A stretch of DNA of 33,143 nucleotides from a virus. A program made the position numbers and the translations under genes. The DNA is taken from the IMG/VR virus record IMGVR_UViG_3300050821_010836, positions 1 to 33,143 of that record; one strand, written 5' to 3'. Positions within the stretch are counted from its first letter, which is position 1; each line of letters starts with the position of its first letter. The notes below the pieces were generated by a model. The model made no database searches. It saw only the letters and a program-made list of their open reading frames with translations, and had not been told where the DNA came from. Below, one piece after another: positions 2,705-33,143 of this stretch.

Positions 2705-3501
2705 TACATACCCAATTCTTGTGGTTGATCATCCATTAGCACTGGTGCCATGGGCTTAAAACGTTCTTCTAAAGGAACATTGTACTTACTCTCCATCATC
2801 TCCACCTCTTGCTCCCGTTTGCGTGACATTTCTGCCAGTTGAGAAGCAATGCGAGGAGCACTTTTAGCGAACAATGTGAGCTCTTGCTTGTGATCTTCTT
2901 TCCATTCTTTGTATTCGTTCAGACTATCTTCGCCGATAATCGCCTCTATCTTCCCGCGAATATAAGAATGCGCGGCCGCGAAGTTCATTTCTACATCATC
3001 TAACTTGAATGTATCAGCTTCAGCAGGAGTCACGTCCTTTATAGTTTCAACCTCAGTTTCATCTAACATTCCCAAACCGACAATACCTAGAGTGGCTCGC
3101 CTTATAGCTTTGGTTTCTGCCTTCAAATAGGCGTTGACTAACGCGTCACCCTTCAAGCCCTGAATTGCTGCTCCGCCAGTAGCTGTATGCAGCCTACCAG
3201 AAGCATCAGAGGCATCGACAGTCACAAGTACTATGCCGTCCTTATCGCGCTCTCTCATATTCATGATGCTGACATTGTGAATCTTGCGCAATTGATCAGT
3301 GGCATCCTTTCTGGCATATAAAGTGAGTTTGCCGTTCAATGTTATGTATTCAAAAGGCTTAGTCAAAGGATTGAGCCCCAGTGAATCACACAGTTTGTTG
3401 TAATAATCGAGTCGTTGATCTGGACTCAGCGCACTTAAATTGCCCGACACCAGAACTTGCTCCAATGCAGTGGCATTATTCCTATTAGCTATACTAGTCA
3501 T
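2704..3501 (-). CDS. RecT/Bet-like single-strand annealing protein
   Basis: This is a 265-residue protein. Residues 30-75 (LDYYNKLCDSLGLNPLTKPF, then LTLYARKDATDQLRK) and residues 127-150 (LKAETKAIRRATLGIVGLGM, then LDETEVE) are the hallmarks of the phage single-strand annealing proteins grouped with RecT/Red-beta. The C-terminal 100 residues are charged and helical. It would anneal complementary strands during phage recombination or replication. No partner 5'-3' exonuclease of the lambda Exo or RecE type was recognised; the small VRR-NUC-like nuclease at 32236 is a possible partner. The ATG has a strong ribosome site (AGGAG, then ATAGG) and a promoter just upstream. It is the first gene of the minus-strand recombination/replication operon. 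Confidence 0.7.
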   Translation of the reverse strand: MTSIANRNNATALEQVLVSGNLSALSPDQRLDYYNKLCDSLGLNPLTKPFEYITLNGKLTLYARKDATDQLRKIHNVSIMNMRERDKDGIVLVTVDASDASGRLHTATGGAAIQGLKGDALVNAYLKAETKAIRRATLGIVGLGMLDETEVETIKDVTPAEADTFKLDDVEMNFAAAHSYIRGKIEAIIGEDSLNEYKEWKEDHKQELTLFAKSAPRIASQLAEMSRKREQEVEMMESKYNVPLEERFKPMAPVLMDDQPQELGM

Positions 3502-3864: not shown

Positions 3865-3920
3865 GTCCAAAAACACACGCACTATCATACTTCAGTTAAT
3901 ATACGTTTGTTGGAGGGATT

Positions 3921-4241
3921 TTGTCTTCATCTTTGACTGGGAGGCATCTTAGCTTCGTTAAAATGTTCCGAACACACTTCGATCATTATATTCGCAGGAA
4001 TTTCGAAGTGGATTATCTTACAAGAGAAGATCTTGTCGCTAGATTAGCACGATTAGCGCGTCAGATCAACTTTGAAAGATTTTCCGAACTCAATGTGGAT
4101 CATGGGATGTATATGATCAATTATTTCATGTACTTAAAGATGGATATGAAAGTAAAGGATGAAGTCAAATTTGATATAGATGAAAAATTATGGGAATGCT
4201 TTGGGCACACTTTTAAGGAAATGACAGGATACACATTATGA
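3921..4241 (+). CDS. Small helical protein in the resolvase operon, unknown
   Basis: This encodes a 106-residue protein. The start is a TTG at 3921 with a strong GGAGGG five bases upstream; no ATG nearby has a comparable site. The sequence is predicted mostly helical, with a basic-rich segment (LTREDLVARLARLARQINFERF, about residues 34-55) and an aromatic/methionine-rich segment (MYMINYFMYLKMDMK, 63-77). No family is recognised. Its stop overlaps the ATG of the membrane gene at 4238 (ATGA), and that gene in turn overlaps the resolvase start. The three are therefore one translationally coupled operon, and the protein may work with one of the other two. Confidence 0.65.
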   Translation: MSSSLTGRHLSFVKMFRTHFDHYIRRNFEVDYLTREDLVARLARLARQINFERFSELNVDHGMYMINYFMYLKMDMKVKDEVKFDIDEKLWECFGHTFKEMTGYTL

Positions 4242-4405
4242 TAGAGGAATTTTCCGCTAAACTCATTTATTTGCTCTTAGGAATATTGGTTGGATGGGTC
4301 ACCACAGTTGGAATTTATCAGAAATATCTATTCCTGACCAACAAAAGGATGGATGAAATATCCGTACAAGTGAAAAGACTGAGTCGATCGAGAGTGTGGA
4401 AATAA
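4238..4405 (+). CDS. 55-residue single-pass membrane protein
   Basis: The frame runs from ATG at 4238, overlapping the previous stop as ATGA, to a TAA that overlaps the resolvase ATG as TAATG. After an acidic start the protein has one strong membrane segment (LIYLLLGILVGWVTTVGIY, about residues 9-27) and then a basic, helical C-terminal tail (ISVQVKRLSRSRVWK). The topology suggests an N-terminal anchor with a short cytoplasmic or periplasmic coiled tail. No family is recognised. The tight coupling on both sides is the best evidence that it is real. Confidence 0.65.
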   Translation: MIEEFSAKLIYLLLGILVGWVTTVGIYQKYLFLTNKRMDEISVQVKRLSRSRVWK

Positions 4406-5040
4406 TGTCGAATATTGTTGTTGGTTATGCACGCATATCTACAGGTGATCAGACACTTAATCTGCAATTAGATGCCCTGGAAAAGGCAGGCTGCCATAAA
4501 ATTTTCACAGATCAGTGCAGTGGTGCAAAAGATAAACGCCCTGGCTTGGATGCTGCCTTAGACCAGCTGCGCCCTGGGGATACTCTGGTCGTGTGGAAAT
4601 TAGACAGACTAGGACGCAGCGCACAGAAATTAGTAACCCTAATGAACGAGTTCAATGATGACAACATCTGCTTCAAAAGCCTCACTGATGGTATTGATAC
4701 CACTACTTCTATGGGTAAGCTCATTTATACTATCATGGCAGCATTTGCAGAGAACGAACGAAATCTCATTGTCGAACGTACAAGAGCCGGTATTAATGCG
4801 GCCAGGGCTAGGGGAAATGTCGGAGGAAGGCCGGAGATTCTAGCCAAAACTGATATTCCTATATTCAAATCAATGTTCATGAATAGGGAAATAACCATCA
4901 GGCACATAGCTGAGTACTTTAAGATGAGCCCTTCTTGTGTTTATTACACTGCCACGAAACTCGGCGTGTCTTCGTCTCAAAGAAAACTTCCTAATGAAAC
5001 TTCTATCATAGATATCAATCCTTCTGCTTTAGCCTCGTAG
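4405..5040 (+). CDS. Serine recombinase, resolvase/invertase family
   Basis: This is a 211-residue Tn3-type small serine recombinase. The catalytic domain has the GYARIST signature (R10, nucleophile S12), WKLDRLGRS (R68, R71), and the long E-helix around AAFAENERNLIVERTRAG. It is followed by ARGNVGGRP and a C-terminal helix-turn-helix (ITIRHIAEYFKMSPSCVYYTATKLG). These enzymes cut and rejoin DNA between two short sites to resolve dimers or invert segments. They are not large integrases. The ATG at 4405 overlaps the preceding stop; an in-frame GTG three codons earlier lies inside the upstream gene. In this phage it could resolve genome multimers, as Cre does in P1, or invert a fibre-gene segment. 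No obvious invertible fibre cassette was found, so resolution is favoured. Confidence 0.92.
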   Translation: MSNIVVGYARISTGDQTLNLQLDALEKAGCHKIFTDQCSGAKDKRPGLDAALDQLRPGDTLVVWKLDRLGRSAQKLVTLMNEFNDDNICFKSLTDGIDTTTSMGKLIYTIMAAFAENERNLIVERTRAGINAARARGNVGGRPEILAKTDIPIFKSMFMNREITIRHIAEYFKMSPSCVYYTATKLGVSSSQRKLPNETSIIDINPSALAS

Positions 5041-5227: not shown

Positions 5228-5293
5228 ATTGCAATTATAATGAATTTTTGCAATCTACAGTATACAATCGACTATAGAGGTGTTAATTGCAAT
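5228..5293. promoter_or_regulatory. Divergent promoter/operator region with three TTGCAAT boxes
   Basis: Between the RHH gene (minus) and the lysis cassette (plus) lie ATTGCAAT at 5228-5235, TTGCAAT at 5248-5254 and ATTGCAAT at 5286-5293. A perfect minus-strand TATAAT at 5239-5234 serves the RHH gene, with two boxes flanking it. On the plus strand, TATAGA at 5273-5278 with TTGCAA 19 bases upstream may serve the lysis genes. Boxes that overlap or flank -10 elements fit a repressor operator. Confidence 0.6.
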
Positions 5294-5573: not shown

Positions 5574-6010
5574 TTACTATCCTCGCATCTCTACTCGGAT
5601 TCATGGGTTCCACCTTACCAAACTTGTTTAAGATATTCGAAGATAAGTCTGATAAGGCTCAAGAATTAGCTATAATGGGAATGCAAATCGAATTCGCAAA
5701 GTTGAACCTGGCTACACAATTACACGAAGTACAAATTGGCGCCGATGCGCAGGAGATGAAGACACTCTACAGTACTTACTCCACTGGTATTCCCTGGGTA
5801 GATGCTCTCAATGGGTGCGTGCGGCCCGTAATAGCTTTCGCCTTCTTTGGTTTGTTCTTTTTGGTGAAAATTCCCGTTATAATTATGGCGCTTCATAATA
5901 TGAATAATATAGCTGATTTCAATATGTTATGGACTCAAGAAGACGGTGCTATCTTCGCAGGAATTATCAGTTTCTACTACGGCAGCCGTGCAATGCAGAA
6001 ATACAAATGA
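5570..6010 (+). CDS. Holin, GTA-type three-TM family (probable)
   Basis: This is a 146-residue protein with an N-terminal hydrophobic helix (ITILASLLGFMGSTLPNLF), an amphipathic charged middle (FEDKSDKAQELAIMGMQIEF and following), then two hydrophobic segments (RPVIAFAFFGLFFLVKIPV, about 87-105; AIFAGIISFYYGSRAM, about 127-142). The motif of W-x-DALNG-x-RPVIA followed by the C-terminal YYGSRA is typical of the gene-transfer-agent-type phage holins. It would form inner-membrane lesions that release the lysozyme encoded next door. It overlaps both neighbours by ATGA, which indicates coupled translation of the lysis cassette. Confidence 0.75.
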   Translation: MITILASLLGFMGSTLPNLFKIFEDKSDKAQELAIMGMQIEFAKLNLATQLHEVQIGADAQEMKTLYSTYSTGIPWVDALNGCVRPVIAFAFFGLFFLVKIPVIIMALHNMNNIADFNMLWTQEDGAIFAGIISFYYGSRAMQKYK

Positions 6011-6447
6011 TTATTCCCCCCGTCCCACAAGCAGCTCTTGATATGATAAAGCGATTTGAAGGTTTGCGTCTTGCAAGATATGATGATGTAGACGGAAATG
6101 GAACCATAGGTTACGGACATCTATGTAAACCGGGAGATCATCTCAATGTCATTACAGAAGATACTGCAGAAAACCTATTACATGATGACAGCTTACTTGC
6201 TGCTGCTGCTGTTACTCGATTTACTACCACTCCACTAACCGATAACCAATATGCCGCTTTAATCGATTTCGTTTTCAATACGGGCGGCGGTTCTTATCAG
6301 CGATCCACTCTAAGACAGAAAATAAATAGGAGGGAATTCAATGATATATATAAGGAACTTAATAAATGGGTTTATGGCAATGGCAGGAGAATTCCTGGGA
6401 TTGTCAAACGTAGACAGGCCGAAGCTATACTTTTCATGCAGGCATAA
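6007..6447 (+). CDS. Endolysin, GH24 lysozyme (T4-lysozyme-like)
   Basis: This is a 146-residue muramidase of the phage GH24 family. The ATG at 6007 overlaps the holin stop (ATGA), so the longer upstream reading frame is not used. The catalytic triad follows the E-8aa-D-5aa-T rule: E18 in RFEGL, D27 in YDDVDG, and T33 in GTIGYGH. The usual downstream blocks are present (LTDNQYAALIDFVFNTGGG; STLRQKIN; GIVKRRQAE). No signal peptide or SAR anchor is seen, so export should depend on the holin. It would cleave the N-acetylmuramic acid-N-acetylglucosamine bond of peptidoglycan at the end of infection. Confidence 0.93.
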   Translation: MIIPPVPQAALDMIKRFEGLRLARYDDVDGNGTIGYGHLCKPGDHLNVITEDTAENLLHDDSLLAAAAVTRFTTTPLTDNQYAALIDFVFNTGGGSYQRSTLRQKINRREFNDIYKELNKWVYGNGRRIPGIVKRRQAEAILFMQA

Positions 6448-6473: not shown

Positions 6474-6956
6474 ATGAGAAAAATAAATGATGACCATTTG
6501 GATTCTACTTGTAAAAAAGCCATCGACTTCATCAAATTAATCGAAGGGTTCAGTCCAAGAAGATACAAGGATAGCAATGGTCGAGATAAAATCGGATATG
6601 GCCACAAATGTGAGCCCAATGACGATCTAGATAAGGTCACGGAAGAAGAAGCGCTGGAGCTTCTATATGAGGATATAGGCAGAGCTATATCTCAAGCCAA
6701 ATATCTGACTACAGCCCCTATCAATAATAATCAGTTGAATGCCTTGATCGCTTTAATTTACGACATAGGAAGAGACAAATTTCATGATTCTGCGGTCAGA
6801 AAGATCATCAATATTAATGATGCACATTTTACAGCAAGATTTTTACAGGAAGCTTTCTTGGAATATTCAACCGTGCGCGGAGAACATACAAGCCTAGAAT
6901 TACTCAGACGACGTCTAGCGGAACTAGAAATGTTTCAAACGCCAATAGAGGTCTAA
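6474..6956 (+). CDS. Second GH24-like protein lacking the catalytic threonine
   Basis: This is a 160-residue protein with its own ribosome site (AAGGA), clearly homologous to the lysozyme just upstream (LIEGFSPRRYKD; KIGYGH; NNNQLNALIALIYDIGR). The catalytic Glu (E24) and Asp (D33) are conserved with the correct spacing. The third residue, threonine in active family members, is lysine here (K39), and the Asn of the NxG motif is Asp. It therefore looks like a diverged tandem duplicate that may bind cell wall without normal hydrolysis, or may have altered chemistry. The last bases overlap the stop codon of the convergent gene at 6953, leaving no room for a terminator. Confidence 0.85.
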   Translation: MRKINDDHLDSTCKKAIDFIKLIEGFSPRRYKDSNGRDKIGYGHKCEPNDDLDKVTEEEALELLYEDIGRAISQAKYLTTAPINNNQLNALIALIYDIGRDKFHDSAVRKIININDAHFTARFLQEAFLEYSTVRGEHTSLELLRRRLAELEMFQTPIEV

Positions 6957-7962: not shown

Positions 7963-8096
7963 TTCTTCTTCTCCGATGCTTTGCGCTTAACAGAATATGC
8001 TATCGCCACTGCCTGACGCTGGGGTTTTCCAGCGTCAATTTCACGTTTTACGTTTTCTGAAAATGCTTTTTTGCTTTTGGATTTAACCAGAGGCAT
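7959..8096 (-). CDS. 45-residue conserved-looking basic phage protein
   Basis: The frame from ATG 8096 to TGA 7959-7961 encodes 45 residues: a run of [16 protein letters not shown], then [19 protein letters not shown] and a lysine tail. The [14 protein letters not shown] motif is characteristic of a widespread family of tiny phage proteins of unknown function. The ATG shares one base with the upstream TAA and the stop overlaps the next ATG. It is below typical gene-calling length but the motif makes it one of the more certain small genes here. Confidence 0.8.
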
Positions 8097-11418: not shown

Positions 11419-13398
11419 TTAAGCGACTGTTATATTACCATTCGAATCCGCTACCACGAATGTGGTATTGGCATTCACTGCTACGATGTCTAGGCAATCA
11501 GAAACCAACGTTGAGGTCAGATGTCCTGATGTACCAAGAGTAGTACTTGTGCTCCCCCAAGCGATCGATTGTCCTGCATTTTGGTTAATCGTCCAGCCAC
11601 CAGCATAACCAACAATCCTAATCTCTGCGCCCGCTGGGAAAGTGGTTGGAAGCGTCAAAGTCAATTGACCAACTGCATTCACAATATATCCCATGTTGGC
11701 AGCTAAAACTGTATTAGAGGTGATCACTGACCAGCTAAATCCTCCCCCCGATGCAGGCTGGAAGGTAGGAGCAGATACAGCTCCGTTCGAAGTTAGTACA
11801 TATCCAGCTGTACTAGAAGATATAGGCGTTACATTTCCAGATCCATCGCTGGCTAAAGCAGAATAAGTGGTGATCATAGGGAGCTGAAGCACCCCAGAGT
11901 TATTCAATTGGAATAACAAAATGGATTCTGTGTAATCATACATTTGGAAAGAGGAAGTATTCAGACCAAAAGTAGTCTGCACTCCTCCCGTACCACCACC
12001 CGTGGAATTATTACCGTTAAGGTAGATAGCTCCTCCTAGAGTACTCGTTCCGCCACCAAAGATTTGAATCCAGCTCTCATTTAATCCTCCATCGGTACGG
12101 AATATTGTTGCTCCACCGCCAGGATTGCCCGCAAGTTCCAAATGGTTCCCATGTCCGTGTGAGCCAGATGGATCGCTTGTAACCTTCAAAACCGTATCCA
12201 CTGTCAGAAGAGATGACGGCTGCATGATCGAAAGCGTGTAAGTAGAATCATTCCAATTAAAATTGGCATTGTCCTGAGTAAGTTTTGTTCCATTGGAAAA
12301 GATCACCGAACCAGCAGTGAAAGGGCCCATTACCCCAGTGGAAGCGACTTCATCCAGTGCTTGTGCCACCTGTGTAGGCACTGTAGGCCAATTACCTGAT
12401 ATAGCAGGAGTGTAACCTTCGTATTTAGCAAGACTGAGATAAGTGACCAATCCGCCATTCGTCTGACTGAGAGTACCAGCATTCAAACTGACTTCATCAG
12501 CGGATAAAGTAGTAGTTGCTTGGTCTACCTGCAAAGTCCCAGACACTTGAGAGGATATCATTGTAGGCGCCATGGTATTGCCAGATCCACTAGAAGTGAA
12601 TTCAACGCCACCAAAGAAATCTACACCCGTGAATTCTGGGCCAATGGCTTGCCCCGTAACTCCTGCGGTGTTGAATACGCAATTATTCGCGAAATATCCA
12701 CCAAACCAGATTTCCTGCATCGCAGAGCTGGTGTAAGTACCAAATATTTGGTTATTATCCCCAGTGATATAATCACTTCCACGACCTAATAGTGTAACAT
12801 TGCCGGCTATCTGGCAATTGACGAGATAAATGTCGTTAGATCCCGACCCACCAATGGACTGAAAGTTGATGTCGAGACCAGTGCTGTTGATCAGGTTGAG
12901 ATTTTGAAATCCTATCCTTTCGGATCCCGCACTGAAAGAGGCAGAATTGATCTTGATAGAGCCAGAAGAATCGATAATCTTCGTAGGCTGCTGCATAGCT
13001 CCGACCAGAAACACCCACACAGGAACTTCCAATCCGGTTTCCGAATAGGTTCCCGCGTTAATCATCACCACGTAGGGTTTGGTAGATGAACTCGTCGTTA
13101 TCTTCGATAAAGCATTTCCGATGGTGAGATAAGGATTCACTACGGTACCATTGCCCGTTGAATCATTACCGTTAGGATCTACATAGAGAACTTGCGCGAA
13201 AGGAACCGCACTAGATCCTCCGCCGGGGATGTTCACTATGGTAGCGACTCCAGGGTTATCGCTAACCGTGACACCTATTCCGGTGAAATTGATCGTAGTC
13301 TCTGATGGGAAAGGCGTACCATTATCTTGAATAATGGAATAGCCACTTCCGCCTCCGCCACCGCCGCCTCCAGAAACTGCACCAATAATATCAGCCAT
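11419..13398 (-). CDS. Tail spike, beta-helix type
   Basis: This is a 659-residue protein. A glycine-rich start (eight Gly in a row, residues 10-17) and an N-terminal domain are followed by VDPNGNDSTGNGTVVNPYLTIGNAL (given here as VDPNGNDSTGNG and PYLTIGNAL), which is the entry motif of pectate-lyase-like right-handed beta-helices. A long series of short beta-strand rungs rich in N, G and V follows (residues about 95-340). A second fibre-like part contains LQLPMITTYSALASDGSGN. The last 108 residues match the C-terminal module of the 10688 gene. The beta-helix could be a depolymerase, but I cannot assign catalytic residues. Confidence 0.75.
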   Translation of the reverse strand: MADIIGAVSGGGGGGGGSGYSIIQDNGTPFPSETTINFTGIGVTVSDNPGVATIVNIPGGGSSAVPFAQVLYVDPNGNDSTGNGTVVNPYLTIGNALSKITTSSSTKPYVVMINAGTYSETGLEVPVWVFLVGAMQQPTKIIDSSGSIKINSASFSAGSERIGFQNLNLINSTGLDINFQSIGGSGSNDIYLVNCQIAGNVTLLGRGSDYITGDNNQIFGTYTSSAMQEIWFGGYFANNCVFNTAGVTGQAIGPEFTGVDFFGGVEFTSSGSGNTMAPTMISSQVSGTLQVDQATTTLSADEVSLNAGTLSQTNGGLVTYLSLAKYEGYTPAISGNWPTVPTQVAQALDEVASTGVMGPFTAGSVIFSNGTKLTQDNANFNWNDSTYTLSIMQPSSLLTVDTVLKVTSDPSGSHGHGNHLELAGNPGGGATIFRTDGGLNESWIQIFGGGTSTLGGAIYLNGNNSTGGGTGGVQTTFGLNTSSFQMYDYTESILLFQLNNSGVLQLPMITTYSALASDGSGNVTPISSSTAGYVLTSNGAVSAPTFQPASGGGFSWSVITSNTVLAANMGYIVNAVGQLTLTLPTTFPAGAEIRIVGYAGGWTINQNAGQSIAWGSTSTTLGTSGHLTSTLVSDCLDIVAVNANTTFVVADSNGNITVA

Positions 13399-23906: not shown

Positions 23907-25034
23907 CTATTGGTTGACGTTGGTTTGTGCAACGTAAGTGGGAAGCACGATCACACCATGGTCAATGCCATTGAATTGGAGTTTTTTAATACCCCAGATA
24001 GCACTGATAGCGATACGTCTAACCTGTTGAATATCCTGGGTATCTTGACGAACAATGAAACCTGGAACGATTTCTTTACCATCATTAAATCCACGACCAA
24101 GAGCAATAGCAGCAGCATCACGTCCACAGAAAACTGCACGACGAACGTTTGGCAATACCAAGTTAGTAGAAGAAGAAACACCGCAAGGCAATTTGTCAGA
24201 ACGGAACACTTCAGTTTGGCCGTAAACAAAACTACGAGCAATTCCACCATCCGTTTTACCAGCCATTACCAAGTTGCCGTAAAGGTCACGGAATTGGATA
24301 GGAGCTGTGGTATCTTGGATGAGCTGGAAGTACTGCCACGTGTGAACATACAAGTGATATTTAATACCACTGCGCTCAGAGATCGGACGGATATACGGCT
24401 GAATCGTTTCTGCCATGCCTTCAAGTTGATCGATATAGCTAAGTTTCATCGTCGCAGTAGGATCAGCTTGAACTTGATCGTCAGTGGTATAACCATTTGG
24501 ATAGTAAATACGCTGAGCAGACGGAGCAAGAACTGGGTTCATACCTTGCAAGGATGTCTTAGGAATGTTGGATGTACCATAAGTGGTGCCATCATAAGTA
24601 AAGTAAGTGGGGTTGAATCCAGCCAGCTGGTTAAACACACTCACTGTACCGCGCACAGATAACCAGTCCATGGAGATCTTATAAGAATCTTCAGGCAAGT
24701 CATACAGAACACGTTGCTGAGCAATAGTTTGAACGTTAGGGATCGAAACTGGGTTACGCAGTTGATCAATCACCATTTGTTCAGTGAAATACAACGGAGA
24801 AGTTTCTTGACCATCAGCCGCTTGCATACCAACGAGACCAGGATTGGTCAGACGTTGTAAGAAGCTCATTGTGACGGTGTCACCCGCACCACGTTGTGGT
24901 TGTTCTTGTTTGGAAACGATACCAGCTTCAAGCATGGAGCTTAAAAGGCCGGAATCAGTAATAAAATCTTTGTAAATCCTGTTGGACCATAACTTGACAA
25001 CCTGTGTGTCAGTGGTCGCGTAGCCTAATGCCAT
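23907..25034 (-). CDS. Major capsid protein (N4-gp56/P22-coat-like)
   Basis: This is 375 residues from the ATG at 25034, where GAGGG lies six bases upstream; a TTG five codons earlier has no such site. The N-terminus (LGYATTDTQVVKLWSNRIYK) and the blocks QPQRGAGDTVTMSFLQRLTN, YLHVHTWQYFQLIQDT-like text (YHLYVHTWQYFQLIQ), LGRGFNDGKEIVPG and the C-terminal AISAIWGIKKLQFNG follow the N4-gp56-type coat family with an HK97 fold. It lies directly after the scaffold gene, as expected for a procapsid system. It has its own promoter and a structured 160-base leader, consistent with the very high expression needed for a coat protein. Confidence 0.85.
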   Translation of the reverse strand: MALGYATTDTQVVKLWSNRIYKDFITDSGLLSSMLEAGIVSKQEQPQRGAGDTVTMSFLQRLTNPGLVGMQAADGQETSPLYFTEQMVIDQLRNPVSIPNVQTIAQQRVLYDLPEDSYKISMDWLSVRGTVSVFNQLAGFNPTYFTYDGTTYGTSNIPKTSLQGMNPVLAPSAQRIYYPNGYTTDDQVQADPTATMKLSYIDQLEGMAETIQPYIRPISERSGIKYHLYVHTWQYFQLIQDTTAPIQFRDLYGNLVMAGKTDGGIARSFVYGQTEVFRSDKLPCGVSSSTNLVLPNVRRAVFCGRDAAAIALGRGFNDGKEIVPGFIVRQDTQDIQQVRRIAISAIWGIKKLQFNGIDHGVIVLPTYVAQTNVNQ

Positions 25035-25199
25035 AGTAAACCCTCGCAAATTGAATAAGACGTTGAAGTCGATTATTCCCAGACGATCGGTTTACCGTGG
25101 CGATTCACGAGAGCGTTACCGTGAGCTCACACGAGAAAAGTGGCGGTTTTACATGACGCCGCATGAAGGTGATAACGTTCACCTTGGGATGATGCTATA
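25035..25199 (-). promoter_or_regulatory. Structured 5' leader of the coat gene
   Basis: The leader contains two copies of TTACCGTG-N6-CACGAGA (plus-strand reading, 25092-25112 and 25116-25136), identical in both arms but different in the six-base centre, each able to fold as CGTG/CACG. Nearer the promoter is a 7-bp stem (25166-25172 with 25179-25185). Conservation of arms with variable centres points to selected hairpins or paired protein sites. They could stabilise the coat mRNA or allow coat or scaffold feedback. Confidence 0.55.
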
Positions 25200-25228
25200 A
25201 GTATAACTAAAGTAATCTGTAGTTGCAA
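25200..25228 (-). promoter_or_regulatory. Coat gene promoter
   Basis: On the minus strand, TTGCAA (25228-25223), exactly 17 bases, then TATACT (25205-25200). The -35 is part of a TATTGCAA box related to the ATTGCAAT motif. It lies between the scaffold and coat genes. Confidence 0.65.
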
Positions 25229-25243
25229 TAGGTTATTATCGCA

Positions 25244-26281
25244 CTAAACTTCATTCATTTGCTTTTGCAATATTGCCAGTTGCCTATGGAACTCAGTCTC
25301 ATTAACACCACGACCACCTTCATTCATCGTAAGGCGTTCAAAATCTCGGAGTGGAATTGCAGGACCATCGGGTTTTCCAAGTTTTGTTGATACTGCGGGC
25401 ACTTCACGAGTTGCATCAGCTGAAGCTCTTTGATTCTTGGCTAAAGTGGAAATAGATGCAGTTTTTGGGGCATTTTTAGCTGAATATCCAATGTTTTTAG
25501 ACATTTCGTAGATCATTTCAGGCACATTTCTGCCATTATTCAGCGCAAATTGAGCCATATTATACAGCTTTTCACGCACAAATCCTTCGGCCTGATTCTC
25601 GCTTATGCCTTGTAAAACAGCATTCTGTTGTTCTTTTTCCAACAAATAATCATAGGCTTTATCGAAATCAGGGACAGCTTTCGCAAATTCTTCTTGTTGC
25701 GTATTCACGGCGGTCGCAAACTGACTGAGCTCAGTGTTTTGCTTCATTATAGCTTCTTGCTGGGCAATCTGATTCTTTAGAGCATTGAGCTCACGCATAT
25801 AGAAAGCGTGGGCTTCTTGATCAACAGGGTCTATTTCCTCTTTAGGAGCCTGCTGAGGGGCATTGATCTTATTGACCGCTGCATTGTATAGCTGAAGCTC
25901 ATGTTGGGCCTTAATTCGCTCTTCTCGTTCGAGATTCAACTGCTCTTCAAGTGCTTTGCGTTTCTCAATCTCTTTATTGAGCCGTTTCTTGGGAATAGTT
26001 TTTGCTTCCGAATAATCGTCTTCTTCTACAGCGGGAGCTTGCACGCTTGTTTCAAGTTCAGCAAGGTTAGATGACTCTTCTTCTGGTTCATGAGTCTCAT
26101 CGGAGAGAGGAGGTTCGCTGACTTTGATATCGTCATTACTGCCTTCATTCTCACCGATTGCTATCGGATTCTCATTTTCCCATACTGCTTGGACGGCTTT
26201 AATGAAATCCTGCTCATTTACCGGACCTGGTTTGCTAAATAAATCACTGTGATTATCTGTCACTGGGGCACTTTCTGTCAT
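25244..26281 (-). CDS. Scaffolding protein
   Basis: This is a 345-residue, highly charged protein. The first 100 residues are acidic (NENPIAIGENEGSNDDIKVS; ETHEPEEESSNLAELETS). A long coiled coil spans about 98-210 (KKRLNKEIEKRKALEEQLNL; EREERIKAQHELQLYNAAV; ALKNQIAQQEAIMKQNTELS), and the C-terminal third is helical and more basic, ending AILQKQMNEV. Position between portal and coat and this composition are those of phage scaffolds, which nucleate coat assembly and leave or are recycled. The start overlaps the portal stop by four bases. Confidence 0.8.
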   Translation of the reverse strand: MTESAPVTDNHSDLFSKPGPVNEQDFIKAVQAVWENENPIAIGENEGSNDDIKVSEPPLSDETHEPEEESSNLAELETSVQAPAVEEDDYSEAKTIPKKRLNKEIEKRKALEEQLNLEREERIKAQHELQLYNAAVNKINAPQQAPKEEIDPVDQEAHAFYMRELNALKNQIAQQEAIMKQNTELSQFATAVNTQQEEFAKAVPDFDKAYDYLLEKEQQNAVLQGISENQAEGFVREKLYNMAQFALNNGRNVPEMIYEMSKNIGYSAKNAPKTASISTLAKNQRASADATREVPAVSTKLGKPDGPAIPLRDFERLTMNEGGRGVNETEFHRQLAILQKQMNEV

Positions 26282-28401
26282 ATAGCTCTCTCTGCTTTGT
26301 TAGACTCCCCTCTTCCCCTATTTGAATGTTCACGGTGCATGCGCATGGCATCCATGTCTAAGTTCCCCAACTCTTTGACACTCCGCACTTGATCATAATC
26401 AGCAGATGCGGCTTTCTTTTTCATATCGATTGCAGCTTCTGCGTCATAATTTTCTAATTCTTTTTGCTTTAGCATGGCTTCTATGGCTGATCTTGTGGCA
26501 TCAGCTTCTTGTTTAGCGGCCTGGGCTTGCTTGAGCCTTGCCTCGCTTTGCAAAAGATCCTGCGTTAGTGGATCTGGGCCAGTATCTTCTGGAGGCGCCA
26601 TCATTTGTTTGATCTTGCCCTTAACTTCACCATCAAGCGGTGCAAATTCCATAATAAGCGGCGTAATATCGATTGGATTTGCTTTATTGAGTAGAACCCC
26701 ACTAAGCTCCAATAGTTTCTCAAATACGCGTTGTTTCTCATCAGGAGTATATGGAAGCTCTTCGACTACGACTTCATATTGCGCAGCCAAGTTGTCTTCT
26801 AATAACGGAACGAATTGTTGTGAGCCTTCTTTGGTAACATGCTTAACCAGAATTCCTTCGCCATTTTCCATCAAAACTCTGAGACAATCCAAGAAGATAT
26901 AGCCTTCATTTAAAGTAAATTGTGTCAATGCATCGAAGTATGGGGCAAGCACCATTAAGCCCTGTCTGACCATCTGGCTATTAAGTTGTGCTGTCATCAG
27001 CTTAGAGTCTGATTGCCCCATAAATGCATCGGTCACCCCAACTACTTCCATCAGTGTCTGATTCGCGTATTGGATCATGCCGAGGATGCTATCTGGAATT
27101 GGAGGCGCTACTTTTGGCTGTACACGCCCTTGGGTAAGCGCACCATTCTCGAAGACCGTGACCTGGGCGGCCTTAACGTACGTGTCTAGGAAGCCTTCCA
27201 AGCTCTTCACAGCACCCACCTCGATGTTCACACCACCCTTTGGAATAGTAGCTAGGAAACCTTCAAAGTCTGATACAGCTTTATTGAGCAGGCGTTGTGG
27301 CTCTTTCATAGAGCGCACCAGGCCGTAATAACATTGACGGATTTCATCGTACTTTCCAGTCATACACTGAAGGCTGAAGCCATTCTGTGTGAAGTTCTCT
27401 GACTTTCTGATGACCTGATTCCCAACGATATCCGCGCGGTAGTATTTCCATTTCTTCTCAGAAACGTATTCCAACCGATTGTAGCCAAGCAAAGACATAG
27501 TTTTCTGGAACTGTTTCTTGTCTTCCTCGGGAATGGCTATAATGCTGTCCAATGACGGGTCGCATTTGTACTTATCCTTCATTAATTTAGCCATTTCAAC
27601 AACGTGTTGAGTATGAGGATCATTCGGATCGCCCTCAAATCCTTTCAGTGGATTCTCAAAGCGATAGAATGTTTCGGTATCACGCCATTGATAATGGTAG
27701 ATTACACCAAGCGATTTGACGATCATCACAGTGTCAAAGAAGTCTAAGAAACGCGCATCCACAGCCGAACCAAACTCAGCATCAGCTTCATCTTTTTCAT
27801 CTGGAGTTAGCCCAATCAGCCATTGGTGCAGCTTCTCTCGATCAACGATTTGGGCTCTACAAACCCAATTGGCGCCTTCGAGGCTGCGATTATCGAGATT
27901 CTGACTGCGAGTAGTGATGTCCCACATCATAAAGTAAGGAAATATACGCTCACAATACGCTTCACCATTGGGGTTATTCATATAATCGATATTGGTATCG
28001 ACCCATCCCATTCCGCATATCAGCATATCCCGCATAGCAAGAGACTTCTTATACTGGAATCTGGCAGTATCCTGAATCCATTTCACGCCATCATTGGCTA
28101 GATCGGAGAATCCCTGCTCTTCAGCGCTTTGAATGCGTGGAACGTATTTTAATTCAGATCTGTTTTGGATCTCAAACCCAGTAATCGCGTCAAGGATGGG
28201 CTGAATACGATTGATTGTACGAGTTGGCATATTATTTGCCATCTGCCTTTCGTAATCATTCTGAAGCCATTGAGATCCCTCATAAAGTCCGTAATTATCG
28301 CGGATTTCATTGGCTCTCCACCATGCGGTAACTAGTAGGTTATCTTGGATGCCTTGATGAGCTTCCGCGACGATATCATAGTCAGACTTCATTTTGCTCA
28401 T
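26278..28401 (-). CDS. Portal protein, P22 type
   Basis: This is a 707-residue protein, close to P22 gp1 (725). It starts with a helical region (DIVAEAHQGIQDNLLVTAWW) and NYGLYEGSQW; then come NRIQPILDAITGFEIQNRSE, MRDMLICGMGWVDTNIDY and GLVRSMKEPQRLLNKAVSDF, all usual blocks of this portal family. A charged helical C-terminal part (LLQSEARLKQAQAAKQEADA; ELENYDAEAAIDMKKKAASA) forms the barrel-like extension seen in P22-type portals. It forms the dodecameric channel for DNA packaging and exit. It is the first gene after the inverted moron, and its own promoter was not found. Confidence 0.9.
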   Translation of the reverse strand: MSKMKSDYDIVAEAHQGIQDNLLVTAWWRANEIRDNYGLYEGSQWLQNDYERQMANNMPTRTINRIQPILDAITGFEIQNRSELKYVPRIQSAEEQGFSDLANDGVKWIQDTARFQYKKSLAMRDMLICGMGWVDTNIDYMNNPNGEAYCERIFPYFMMWDITTRSQNLDNRSLEGANWVCRAQIVDREKLHQWLIGLTPDEKDEADAEFGSAVDARFLDFFDTVMIVKSLGVIYHYQWRDTETFYRFENPLKGFEGDPNDPHTQHVVEMAKLMKDKYKCDPSLDSIIAIPEEDKKQFQKTMSLLGYNRLEYVSEKKWKYYRADIVGNQVIRKSENFTQNGFSLQCMTGKYDEIRQCYYGLVRSMKEPQRLLNKAVSDFEGFLATIPKGGVNIEVGAVKSLEGFLDTYVKAAQVTVFENGALTQGRVQPKVAPPIPDSILGMIQYANQTLMEVVGVTDAFMGQSDSKLMTAQLNSQMVRQGLMVLAPYFDALTQFTLNEGYIFLDCLRVLMENGEGILVKHVTKEGSQQFVPLLEDNLAAQYEVVVEELPYTPDEKQRVFEKLLELSGVLLNKANPIDITPLIMEFAPLDGEVKGKIKQMMAPPEDTGPDPLTQDLLQSEARLKQAQAAKQEADATRSAIEAMLKQKELENYDAEAAIDMKKKAASADYDQVRSVKELGNLDMDAMRMHREHSNRGRGESNKAERAI

Positions 28402-28449
28402 TAAGCGGCCACATCAGTAGGTTTAGTTACAAATTCTACCTAATATTAC

Positions 28450-28478
28450 TTACAATTGCAACCACAAGTGACTATAAT
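28450..28478 (+). promoter_or_regulatory. Promoter of the inverted gene (moron), with an ATTGCAA box
   Basis: TTACAA (28450-28455), a 17-base spacer and a perfect TATAAT (28473-28478). ATTGCAA (28455-28461) lies 11 bases before the -10, the same geometry as the 14696-14724 promoter on the other strand. Confidence 0.65.
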
Positions 28479-28506
28479 TCAGCATAATAATAACTAGGAG
28501 TTATAT

Positions 28507-28881
28507 ATGAAACAGCATGTTAAGCGCTTTTGTGCGCTGCACAACAATATCCAAAAAGCGTGCCTCGTGGCGGATAATTCCAATGACATATTCCTGAATA
28601 TTGTTAGTGGTTTCAAAGACTTTTTGCGACATGCTGATGTATACCTTGAAGTGAAAGATATCTTTATAGAACAAATCATCTACATGCGTGATGATAGACG
28701 ACGTTATCGATCATGTAGCCTGTGCATTATGTGCGAGCCCAATTCACAAAAGACTTTAACAATGTCTGCTAAGCATTTGAGTTGTATACTTAAATCTGAG
28801 AATATTTCTCATGAGAAAGTAGAATGGGTCGCGCCCAACAAACTGCGTATTGTGCTGTTTGAGATAGCTAGTCTTAAGTAA
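28507..28881 (+). CDS. Moron-type gene: small basic cysteine-containing protein
   Basis: This is a 124-residue protein with a strong ribosome site (AGGAG, seven bases before the ATG) and its own promoter. It is basic, with six cysteines (C9, C19, C70, C73, C76, C93), including CxxCxxC at 70-76 after an arginine cluster (RDDRRRYRSC), so metal binding is possible. Helical (FLNIVSGFKDFLRHADVYLE) and strand-like (KVEWVAPNKLRIVLFEI) parts suggest a folded alpha/beta domain. It is the only gene on the plus strand inside the 25-kb virion block, between TerL-side genes and the portal, and is followed by a large hairpin. No family is recognised. As an independently expressed insertion it may act during early infection or lysogeny (exclusion, anti-defence or host modulation). 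Confidence 0.8.
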   Translation: MKQHVKRFCALHNNIQKACLVADNSNDIFLNIVSGFKDFLRHADVYLEVKDIFIEQIIYMRDDRRRYRSCSLCIMCEPNSQKTLTMSAKHLSCILKSENISHEKVEWVAPNKLRIVLFEIASLK

Positions 28882-28906
28882 TTAACTTGGTCAAATAACT
28901 TATTGC

Positions 28907-28978
28907 CAACAAATAGAGCTTAGCCTTTCAAGGCAGCGTATTTCAAGCATTTGCGAAAAGGCTAAGCTCTATTTGTTG
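28907..28978. terminator. 22-bp perfect inverted repeat, probable bidirectional terminator
   Basis: The arms at 28907-28928 and 28957-28978 are perfect inverted copies over 22 bp (outer CAACAAATAG, inner AGCCTTT) around a 28-base loop. It lies between the convergent ends of the inverted gene (28881) and the 29016 gene. A stem this long is unusual for a terminator and lacks a clean T-run, so an insertion footprint or recombination site is also possible. Confidence 0.65.
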
Positions 28979-29015: not shown

Positions 29016-29291
29016 TTATCTATCAGGGCAATATACGAGTCTACATTCGTCGCTCATGCCATCTGGACCAACTAAGCCATAGAGTTGCATCATGAGGGAA
29101 TCAAAATACTCCATAGCTTTCTTTTCGGTCTTGAATGACTCGCTGACATAGCTCTCATTGGTGCCGAATATGATCTGCACAGCATGTTTCTTATCCTCTA
29201 GCTTCATGACATGCATGAACTTTATGTGCTCGACATTCACAAGTATGCCAGGTTGTTTGTCGGTCGCGCCTATAAGTATGAATTTAGCCAT
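29016..29291 (-). CDS. Small alpha/beta protein, unknown
   Basis: From the ATG at 29291 this is 91 residues; a start six codons earlier (29309) lies inside the upstream gene and is the alternative. The sequence alternates strands and helices: AKFILIGATD, PGILVNVEHIKFMHVMK, HAVQIIFGTNESYVSESF, KTEKKAMEYFDSLMMQLYGL. The pattern resembles small phage proteins of the 'sequence of strand-strand-strand-helix' type seen in flagellar-FlbD-like or KTSC-like folds, but I cannot assign one. It lies downstream of the terminase and is separated from the portal by the inverted gene. Confidence 0.6.
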   Translation of the reverse strand: MAKFILIGATDKQPGILVNVEHIKFMHVMKLEDKKHAVQIIFGTNESYVSESFKTEKKAMEYFDSLMMQLYGLVGPDGMSDECRLVYCPDR

Positions 29292-29293
29292 TA

Positions 29294-29494
29294 TTAATTT
29301 CCATTCCATGTTGGTTTATCATCTTCTTCGTCAATGTATTTCTCAAGCAAATCGACTAAATCGTTGGCTATGAGCGTTACACCCTGGTGTCCTTTCTGCT
29401 CTAGTTTGTAATCTTCGCCAGCAAACCCTTTGACAGTGTCAATCAGGTAATCTTGGACAATTTTTACCATCTCATCTTTGTGATAATTCATCAT
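29294..29494 (-). CDS. Small acidic helical protein, unknown
   Basis: This is a 66-residue protein (or 65; two adjacent ATGs at 29494 and 29491). GGAGA lies upstream. The body is helical and acidic (MVKIVQDYLIDTVKGFAGED; LIANDLVDLLEKYIDEEDD). The start overlaps the TerL stop (ATGA), so it is translationally coupled to terminase. A packaging or assembly accessory role is possible from position only. Confidence 0.6.
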   Translation of the reverse strand: MMNYHKDEMVKIVQDYLIDTVKGFAGEDYKLEQKGHQGVTLIANDLVDLLEKYIDEEDDKPTWNGN

Positions 29495-30960
29495 CTATCT
29501 CCATATAAACTATAATAATCAACTTCCCCAACTCCAGGCCAAATAGGCTCTATGTCACATAATCTACTCATCGCATCCATGGCGTCGTCATGCAAGCCCA
29601 CGGGGAATGCTAAGTATTCTTCCTCGATCAGCTCATGGATAATGTCTACGACTTTGCCTTCATAGTTAGTCTTCATCAACGTGCGAGGGAAATAGAACCT
29701 ATGATCAGAGAAGTAAGTCTGCAGGCGCTTAATACGCTCCTCTTTACGCAAGATACCACCTACTTCCTCTATGTAAAAGCGGTAATTCCTATGCTCCATA
29801 GCCTGACGCATAAAGTCTGCATCAATCTGCATGCCATACTTCTCGTAGACTACAAGCTTAGGACGATACTTTCTATGCATTTGGAATATCGCATCTTCAC
29901 GTTCCTTCAGGTTTAGTTTGTCTCTGATCATATCGACCAAATAGACATTCTCGTCAGGACCAAGACCAAGGATGCATATCACGGTGTAATCAGAGGTAGA
30001 CTTTTTAGAGTTAGCAGGATCCACAAACATGTACATATTAAGACTAGGAAGGTCGATCTTTTCATAATATTCAATCCACTCACGTCTGAATTCTCCACCA
30101 CCTTCCGGAGATGGGGTCTGTTGATATTGCCCGGCAAAGCCATAAGGACCGAGTTGACGCTTCAGGGAAGCTATTTCCAATTCGCCAATACGATCTGGAT
30201 GTAAAGTCTCACCTTCTTTGAATAACTTCTTGAATTTCCCGAAATCATAAACTGTATCTTGTTCGGATATGAGTGGAATCTTTAGATGTTCCCAGCCACC
30301 CTGTTCCAGTAAATGTCCAGTAAGATCATTCATATGCAGCCTTTGCATGATCAGGATCATAACGCCAGATTTAGGATCATTAAGGCGAGTAGTCCAAGTA
30401 CGATCGTGCCAACGATTAGCTGATTCTCTGACAACCATGGAGTCTTGCTCTTTAGCATTAAGAGGATCATCCACAATAAGGAAGTCACCGCCGTGACCAG
30501 TAATAGTTCCGCCCACACCTGCAGCATATCTAGCTCCTCTTTCTGTTGTTACGAATCGTTTCTTTGTATTTTGATCTCCGACGAGTTTTGTTTCAGGAAA
30601 TATTCTCTGGTACCAGGGGGACTCTAGAATAAGCCTGCAATCGACTGAGAGACTTTCAGCGAGTCCCATGGCATAACTACTGCACATCACCTGTGTAGAA
30701 GCATCGCGGCCAAGAAGCCATGCAGGAAATGCTATAGAGCAAATGATAGACTTCATAAAGCGGGGAGGGATGTTAATGATGAGTCGCTTGATTTCCCTAT
30801 TCTCGCAGGCCATCAGGTACTCAGAGATACAGTCCAAATGCCAGTTATGGCTGTATATGGATCCAGGGGATACCATGCTGAATACTTTCCTGGTAAACCA
30901 AGAGAAATCAGTTCGGCATAGTCGTAGATAAGCATCTTCATCATCAATCGGGTTTGTCAT
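29491..30960 (-). CDS. Terminase large subunit
   Basis: This is a 489-residue packaging motor. The ATPase half has the deviant Walker A PPRFMKS (65-71; the usual form is PPRxGKS), preceded by LIINI, and Walker B LIVDDP (161-166). The nuclease half has FVDPANSKKSTSDYTV (D314), VVYEKYG (E373) and HDDAMDA (457-463), the acidic cluster of the RNase-H-like terminase nuclease. The Met in place of Gly in Walker A is noteworthy but still leaves the essential Lys-Ser. It overlaps TerS by 17 bp. The C-terminal nuclease with headful-type relatives agrees with a circularly permuted genome. Confidence 0.93.
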   Translation of the reverse strand: MTNPIDDEDAYLRLCRTDFSWFTRKVFSMVSPGSIYSHNWHLDCISEYLMACENREIKRLIINIPPRFMKSIICSIAFPAWLLGRDASTQVMCSSYAMGLAESLSVDCRLILESPWYQRIFPETKLVGDQNTKKRFVTTERGARYAAGVGGTITGHGGDFLIVDDPLNAKEQDSMVVRESANRWHDRTWTTRLNDPKSGVMILIMQRLHMNDLTGHLLEQGGWEHLKIPLISEQDTVYDFGKFKKLFKEGETLHPDRIGELEIASLKRQLGPYGFAGQYQQTPSPEGGGEFRREWIEYYEKIDLPSLNMYMFVDPANSKKSTSDYTVICILGLGPDENVYLVDMIRDKLNLKEREDAIFQMHRKYRPKLVVYEKYGMQIDADFMRQAMEHRNYRFYIEEVGGILRKEERIKRLQTYFSDHRFYFPRTLMKTNYEGKVVDIIHELIEEEYLAFPVGLHDDAMDAMSRLCDIEPIWPGVGEVDYYSLYGDR

Positions 30961-32140: not shown

Positions 32141-32176
32141 ATTAAACTCCGTCATATCAAATCTCCATTTGTATAC

Positions 32177-32221
32177 TTGAGATTGCAATTATTGTGTTAT
32201 AATGTCAATTGCAGATTGCAA
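32177..32221 (+). promoter_or_regulatory. Promoter/operator of the nuclease operon with three TTGCA boxes
   Basis: TATAAT at 32198-32203, with TTGAGA at 32177-32182 (15-base spacer, short). ATTGCAAT (32182-32189), ATTGCA (32208-32213) and ATTGCAA (32215-32221) flank the -10. The 12-mer GATTGCAATTAT here (32181-32192) is identical to that at 5227-5238. The region lies between divergent genes, so it may also control the virion block. Confidence 0.6.
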
Positions 32222-32703: not shown

Positions 32704-33099
32704 ATGAAACCGAGCACCAAAGTTAGAAACTGGGGTAAATACCTCATAATTGCCTTTACAGAGCGAGCAGAGCTAGAATGCTCGCCAGAGGTCCTGCAAC
32801 ATGAACTTAGTTACGTGGAGCACCTTAAAACCCGTTTAAATGAGTTTATAGATCTGAGGACTAGCATAGATTGGGAACTGAACGACTATTGGGATGATTC
32901 TGCCAATAGAATTTCTACCAAGATGGAACGGTCTGAGCCAATGGGAATAAAGGATTTGGATAAAATTACGGATCTATGTGAGTTATTCTTGGAATTAATC
33001 GAAGAAGAGACGGAAAGACTTACGAATGTGTCGTTGGCTTTTGACGAATATCAAATAGAGAAATATTCACCCACAAGCTATAATTTCGGAGAAATATAA
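32704..33099 (+). CDS. Acidic helical protein in the nuclease operon, unknown
   Basis: This is 131 residues from the ATG at 32704, with TAGGAGA upstream. It is mostly helical, with aromatic and acidic stretches (HELSYVEHLKTRLNEFIDLR; IDWELNDYWDDSANR; KITDLCELFLELIEEETERL). The net charge is negative. No family is recognised. Its TAA overlaps the ATG of the membrane protein whose remaining codons are at 53-256, so it sits in the middle of a three-gene operon with a nuclease and a membrane protein. Its last 53 bases are repeated at the beginning of the window. Confidence 0.7.
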   Translation: MKPSTKVRNWGKYLIIAFTERAELECSPEVLQHELSYVEHLKTRLNEFIDLRTSIDWELNDYWDDSANRISTKMERSEPMGIKDLDKITDLCELFLELIEEETERLTNVSLAFDEYQIEKYSPTSYNFGEI

Positions 33100-33143
33100 T
33101 GATTAGAACTATTTTCGATTTTCTTATGCCGTTAATTGCCTTC
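33047..33143. repeat. Right copy of 97-bp terminal direct repeat (circular join)
   Basis: This is identical to 1-97. It contains the end of the gene at 32704-33099 and the first 45 bases of the membrane-protein gene that is complete at 53-256. Removing one copy gives a 33,046-bp circle. Confidence 0.95.

Follow-up and report, generated by a model that had tools for sequence, protein, structure and literature searches.

The gene analysed here (28507..28881, plus strand) encodes a protein of 124 amino acids of an orphan family and is termed the accessory gene in the following. It lies in a stretch of 33,143 bases of viral DNA, the window, which carries an exact 97-bp direct repeat at its ends (1-97 and 33047-33143) and therefore probably represents a genome of 33,046 bp that is closed or permuted. 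It is only distantly related to known phages: in cultured or named genomes the best portal matches reach 25-27% identity. The accessory gene is flanked by genes on the minus strand. On one side it diverges from the gene of a P22-type portal protein (26278-28401), with the Phage_capsid_3 major capsid gene further on (23907-25049). On the other side it converges with a gene for 97 amino acids (29016..29309), which is conserved in the clade, and with the packaging operon including the terminase large subunit (29491-30960).

The start codon (28507) is preceded at a distance of 6 nt by the ribosome-binding site AGGAG (28496-28500, plus strand) and further upstream by a promoter-like site TTACAA-17-TATAAT (28450-28478, plus strand), read from the sequence as TTACAA at 28450-28455, a spacer of 17 nt and TATAAT at 28473-28478. 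An earlier reading of the sequence alone had described promoter, ribosome site, 124-codon gene and a 22-bp hairpin as a plus-strand unit between minus-strand terminase-side genes and portal. All four elements are found at these positions, and profile matches confirm the neighbours. A chance ORF is ruled out by syntenic homologues, one of them 53% identical, and by the codon-position bias; the gene is real.

Behind the accessory gene and ahead of its convergent neighbour there is a hairpin (28907..28978, no strand assigned) with a perfect 22-bp stem and a 28-nt loop, its arms at 28907-28928 and 28957-28978 being exact complements. It folds with -40.7 kcal/mol (z -5.7; none of 200 shuffled sequences was equally stable) and, stretched to 27 nt, heads the list of inverted repeats of the window. 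The full stem is not directly followed by a long T-run, so that reading it as a terminator requires the core GAGCTTAGCC/GGCTAAGCTC with the flanks AACAAATA and TATTTGTT. Because the core stands between these two flanks, the terminator would be bidirectional, and we regard this as the probable nature of the hairpin. Relatives lack such a hairpin at this junction, their convergent genes overlapping instead, and as it was found in no other viral contig we rejected the idea of a repeat element of other phages.

A small serine recombinase of the resolvase/invertase type is encoded at 4396-5040, adjoining the lysis genes. Inversion of the segment by this recombinase was also rejected, since the orientation is identical in all four members of the family, and besides the hairpin no flanking inverted repeats occur among the 25 longest listed. 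The lysis genes include two tandem endolysin-like paralogues (5929-6447 and 6474-6956), the second being more divergent, while the genome of relative L006 has one.

Promoters and the TTGCAA box

Taken as a generic sigma-70 promoter, the site ahead of the accessory gene is a weak match, such sites being about as frequent in the window as expected by chance (25 sites found, 23.4 expected in shuffles). A more specific signal is the palindromic box TTGCAA at 28456-28461, which can be read in both directions: with N11-TATAAT on the plus strand towards the accessory gene, and with N17-TAGAAT on the minus strand, where it doubles as the -35 element of a promoter-like site of the portal gene (TTGCAA-17-TAGAAT, 28433..28461). 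As TTGCAA is its own reverse complement, this single copy can serve both divergent genes. The intergenic DNA of the window holds eight copies of the box (5229-5292, 14713, 25223, 28456 and 32183-32221) where 1.24 are expected, a number reached in none of 1000 shuffles, and these include copies upstream of capsid, tail and packaging genes. The spacing is N17 ahead of portal and capsid and N11-TATAAT ahead of the accessory gene and a gene at 14.7 kb. The sequence-only reading had noted that the accessory gene has the same box and 11-base geometry as the tail-appendage promoter, and this is correct: TTGCAA-N11-TATAAT occurs exactly twice in the window, at 28456(+) and 14718(-), and its plus-strand form is expected about 0.001 times in shuffled intergenic DNA.

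In the nearest relative, L009, the N17 arrangement is present ahead of portal and capsid, and in L006 ahead of portal. The TATAAT of the accessory gene is replaced in L009; the promoter details are thus not conserved. As the box is palindromic, provides the portal gene with its -35 element and is found again ahead of other structural genes, the accessory gene probably belongs to the promoter network of the phage itself. The view of a self-contained unit therefore holds only in part. A promoter-like region and a hairpin are indeed present, but one copy of the box usable by both genes, and the membership of this copy in a phage-wide set, contradict strict self-containment. Apart from this locus, a phage-wide promoter box allows part of the transcription programme to be read in a phage that is uncultured.

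Two further elements of the intergenic DNA may be mentioned. TTGCAATCT with AGTATACAA repeats is found in inverted orientation at 5243-5267 and 32169-32193, and a long leader (25050-25243) ahead of the capsid gene contains a conserved sequence, ATCATCCCAAGGTGAACGTTATCA, which is also present in the L009 genome and is possibly an RNA element. Rfam and tRNA scans found nothing.

Occurrence in related phages

Relatives were gathered by portal- and capsid-based scans of viral contigs, the last of which, by capsid, gave no further informative contig. Inverted homologues of the accessory gene at the same site were found in L009 (portal 90% identical) and in L006 and L008 (68-69%), so that, with the window counted, all four informative phages with a portal at least 68% identical carry the family there in one and the same orientation. 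No homologue is present in the nine informative contigs with a portal at most 62% identical, which were read over their whole length; several of them have terminase directly followed by portal. All nine contigs hold the terminase-portal interval, but some are near-copies of each other and together they represent about five lineages. Three further contigs, likewise without a homologue, were left out of the count, two of which (L004, L007) end before the site while the third (L033) is a short fragment. The gene is thus retained in close relatives and lacking in more distant ones. Cultured phages, bacterial genomes and PDB sequences yielded no homologues either.

On the portal tree this distribution needs one change and fits a single gain of the accessory gene, although the branch uniting the gene-bearing groups has low support (78/33). 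That the insertion is recent or specific for one strain was rejected, because four of four informative phages with a portal at least 68% identical, the window included, share the gene with its site and orientation and because it is under purifying selection.

In these phages the terminase-portal junction serves as a site of insertion. HNH endonuclease genes occupy it in L004 and L008 and, as judged by eye, an HNH-like gene in L028, which marks the site as insertion-prone. The accessory gene resembles these homing endonuclease insertions in its position within the interval. However, the HNH genes run in the direction of the portal gene and belong to a selfish family, while the accessory gene is inverted and lacks a nuclease signature. 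In L004 the reading frame of the portal gene seems to shift close to its start (500-670), beside the HNH gene, which could be an assembly error or a real disruption. In three other phages (L026, L027 and L034) the terminase is inverted relative to the portal, and a two-gene pair resembling the Phd/YefM-YoeB toxin-antitoxin systems was recognised by eye beside the terminase (2790-3343, 3888-4441 and 3926-4431, respectively).

Sequence, fold and evolution of the protein

The protein of the window is 53% identical to that of L009 and 18-19% identical to the L006/L008 type. Both types are nevertheless homologous: they score 6-9.6 standard deviations above shuffled sequences, hhalign aligns them with an E-value of 7e-5, and they have a D-x-Y-L-E core in common. 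The changes between window and L009 fall on codon positions 1/2/3 as 49/30/77, and between L006 and L008 a dN of 0.108 and a dS of 1.39 were obtained (dN/dS about 0.08). For the portal the corresponding dN values are much lower, with 0.074 versus 0.42 for the accessory gene between window and L009 and 0.016 versus 0.108 between L006 and L008. By these estimates the accessory product evolves at about six to seven times the rate of the portal, under constraint at the protein level.

The hydropathy maximum is at most 1.02 across the accessory proteins, so that there is no membrane segment, and signal peptide and membrane-length hydrophobic stretch are lacking. Judged by sequence, the protein is small and soluble. 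Its charge varies among the members (pI 9.0 in the window and 9.2 in L009, 6.7 and 6.0 in the L006/L008 types). Nor is the CxxCxxC motif (C70-C73-C76), which had been singled out in the window protein, a feature of the family: L009 keeps C70 and C76 and the L006/L008 types keep none, so that a zinc-binding CxxC cluster is ruled out.

The impression that the product matches no known family was borne out. Pfam, PHROGs, NCBIfam, PADLOC, PDB sequences and fold libraries gave no confirmed match, and PADLOC returned nothing for any of the four members at E<=1. A match of the window protein to part of the 1713-position profile PHROG 17273 (E 1.6e-4) was taken as chance, as none of the homologues matches it. 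AlphaFold2 models with the window and the L008 protein as query (pLDDT 73 and 75) both have the order alpha-alpha-beta-beta-alpha-beta-beta at moderate confidence; they were built from the same four sequences and are not fully independent. The structure-based search that had been proposed for identifying the protein did not succeed, for neither model gave a match at E<=0.001 in PDB or BFVD and TM-scores did not exceed 0.52. A family of four members and two sub-types without a match to curated profiles suits screening for anti-defence activity.

The accessory gene as a moron-like candidate

A moron is defined as a gene, usually with expression of its own, that a comparison of related phages shows to be an apparent insertion in a phage operon (PMC2629481). 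Judged by this comparison the accessory gene is a moron, being present in the window, L009, L006 and L008 and absent from nine contigs. Morons are further expected to have no part in morphogenesis or lysis, and as relatives with the same virion genes do without the accessory gene, it is probably dispensable. As to independent expression, promoter-like site and hairpin are present, but the box is common to the portal promoter and others, and -10 element and hairpin are not conserved in relatives. The designation as a moron stands on the comparative side, and the autonomous promoter has to be revised to one that probably uses a box of the structural promoters. We regard the locus as a good specimen of a familiar kind of gene, with a new protein family.

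The 'ant moron' of P22-like phages lies between gene 16 and the tailspike gene 9 (PMC2629481). Like it, the accessory gene is a variable, probably non-morphogenetic insertion that occupies a single fixed place among the virion genes, is missing from some relatives and may have regulation of its own. Unlike it, the accessory gene is located between terminase and portal, consists of one gene (two in L006/L008), matches no known sequence family and seems to be regulated through the promoter box of the structural genes. Lysogenic accessory loci are expressed from prophages and act on the host (PMC7067206). With loci of the STMMW_20121 type (PMC7067206) the accessory gene has in common that it stands alone in antisense to lytic genes, with a promoter or promoter-like site belonging to it; those loci are defined by transcription in lysogens, while ours is read from sequence alone and shows no sign of lysogeny. 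Among the titles and abstracts returned by a literature search there was no direct precedent for a gene in antisense orientation between terminase and portal.

Possible function

We tentatively favour a clade-specific gene of the moron type, inverted at the terminase-portal junction and under phage control, whose soluble product has a target in the host. The gene itself, its site, orientation and conservation and the sharing of the box are shown by the data, and for timing, termination and molecular role we infer the following. The gene would have entered the junction in an ancestor of the phage group and stayed there in inverted orientation, its promoter back-to-back with that of the portal gene and with the TTGCAA box in common with other structural genes. 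Given this common box, it is most likely activated by the phage during infection and not autonomously. The hairpin would stop both the accessory transcript and the oncoming transcript of the packaging operon and so separate the antisense units. The protein may be active in the cytosol of the host and have a host target that changes, as its rapid but constrained divergence suggests. A cytosolic protein for host interaction, in anti-defence or host takeover, is thus the most likely product, at low confidence; as no functional family is matched, the evidence for this role consists of evolution rate and position. The exclusion, anti-defence or virulence function proposed earlier is borne out by no single result, and the protein has neither signal peptide nor membrane-length stretch. 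It is a rather speculative extension that we are dealing with a new host-interaction (anti-defence) family of an uncultured podovirus-like group, with expression coupled to the portal promoter through the palindromic box.

The rapid constrained divergence and the clade-limited presence place host interaction or anti-defence ahead of two alternatives, a regulator of the divergent genes and an accessory of the virion. In divergent gene pairs one member often regulates the other through the common promoter region, and the accessory gene could encode such a regulator of the portal and structural operon. The back-to-back layout around one palindrome, the constant position at the portal promoter and the basic proteins of window and L009 would fit. 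However, profile searches gave no DNA-binding domain, the models lack helix-turn-helix or ribbon-helix-helix topology, the L006/L008 versions are neutral to acidic, and in L008 the HNH gene stands between accessory gene and portal, which makes a regulator unlikely.

It is doubtful that the product assists a virion protein during assembly, as a tail-completion-like helper or a secretion-chaperone-like one of YbjN/CesT fold. The gene is placed among virion genes, and the weak fold matches include, within the best 50 in BFVD, several proteins of tail completion or tail termination, as well as the diffocin collar and the T5 tail terminator in PDB, and, as top PDB match of the L008-query model, DR_1245, which we take to have a YbjN/chaperone-like fold. 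But all these matches have E>0.001 and TM-scores of at most 0.52, the two models disagree on the match, relatives with the same virion genes lack the gene, and it evolves much faster than the portal.

A conversion gene expressed in the lysogen to alter the host is improbable. Such expression is a known pattern of accessory loci that lie antisense within lytic regions (PMC7067206), and the serine recombinase is encoded in the window. Yet neither a phage repressor nor a large integrase was recognised among the scanned proteins, 84,980 species genomes contain no prophage relative by portal or accessory gene, and the box ties the gene to structural promoters.

Second gene and TTGTATACAA palindromes in L006 and L008

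The end of the accessory gene is overlapped in L006 and L008 by another small antisense gene (69/72 amino acids). This second gene is missing in the window and L009, and no downstream remnant of it was detected in the window; the accessory gene hence does not depend on it. TTGTATACAA palindromes lie upstream of the two-gene pair in both phages, and as this palindrome also lies ahead of their packaging operon and of other phage genes it is not specific for the pair. That the two genes form a toxin-antitoxin-like or selfish pair, as overlap and palindromes might suggest, is very improbable in view of the missing partner in window and L009, the palindromes ahead of other genes and the lack of any match to toxin-antitoxin families.

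With TTGCAA in the window and TTGTATACAA in L006/L008, both sub-types carry promoter or operator elements used elsewhere in their own phage. Operator-like TTGTATACAA sites are found in the L006 contig (G003) at 7981-8013, 12320, 15146, 15665 and 18335 and in the L008 contig (G005) at 13211-13253 and 17139. In L006 a near-copy is also located upstream of a small HTH gene and of the recombinase operon, and this HTH_38 gene with its upstream TTGTATACAA-type site may be the regulator.
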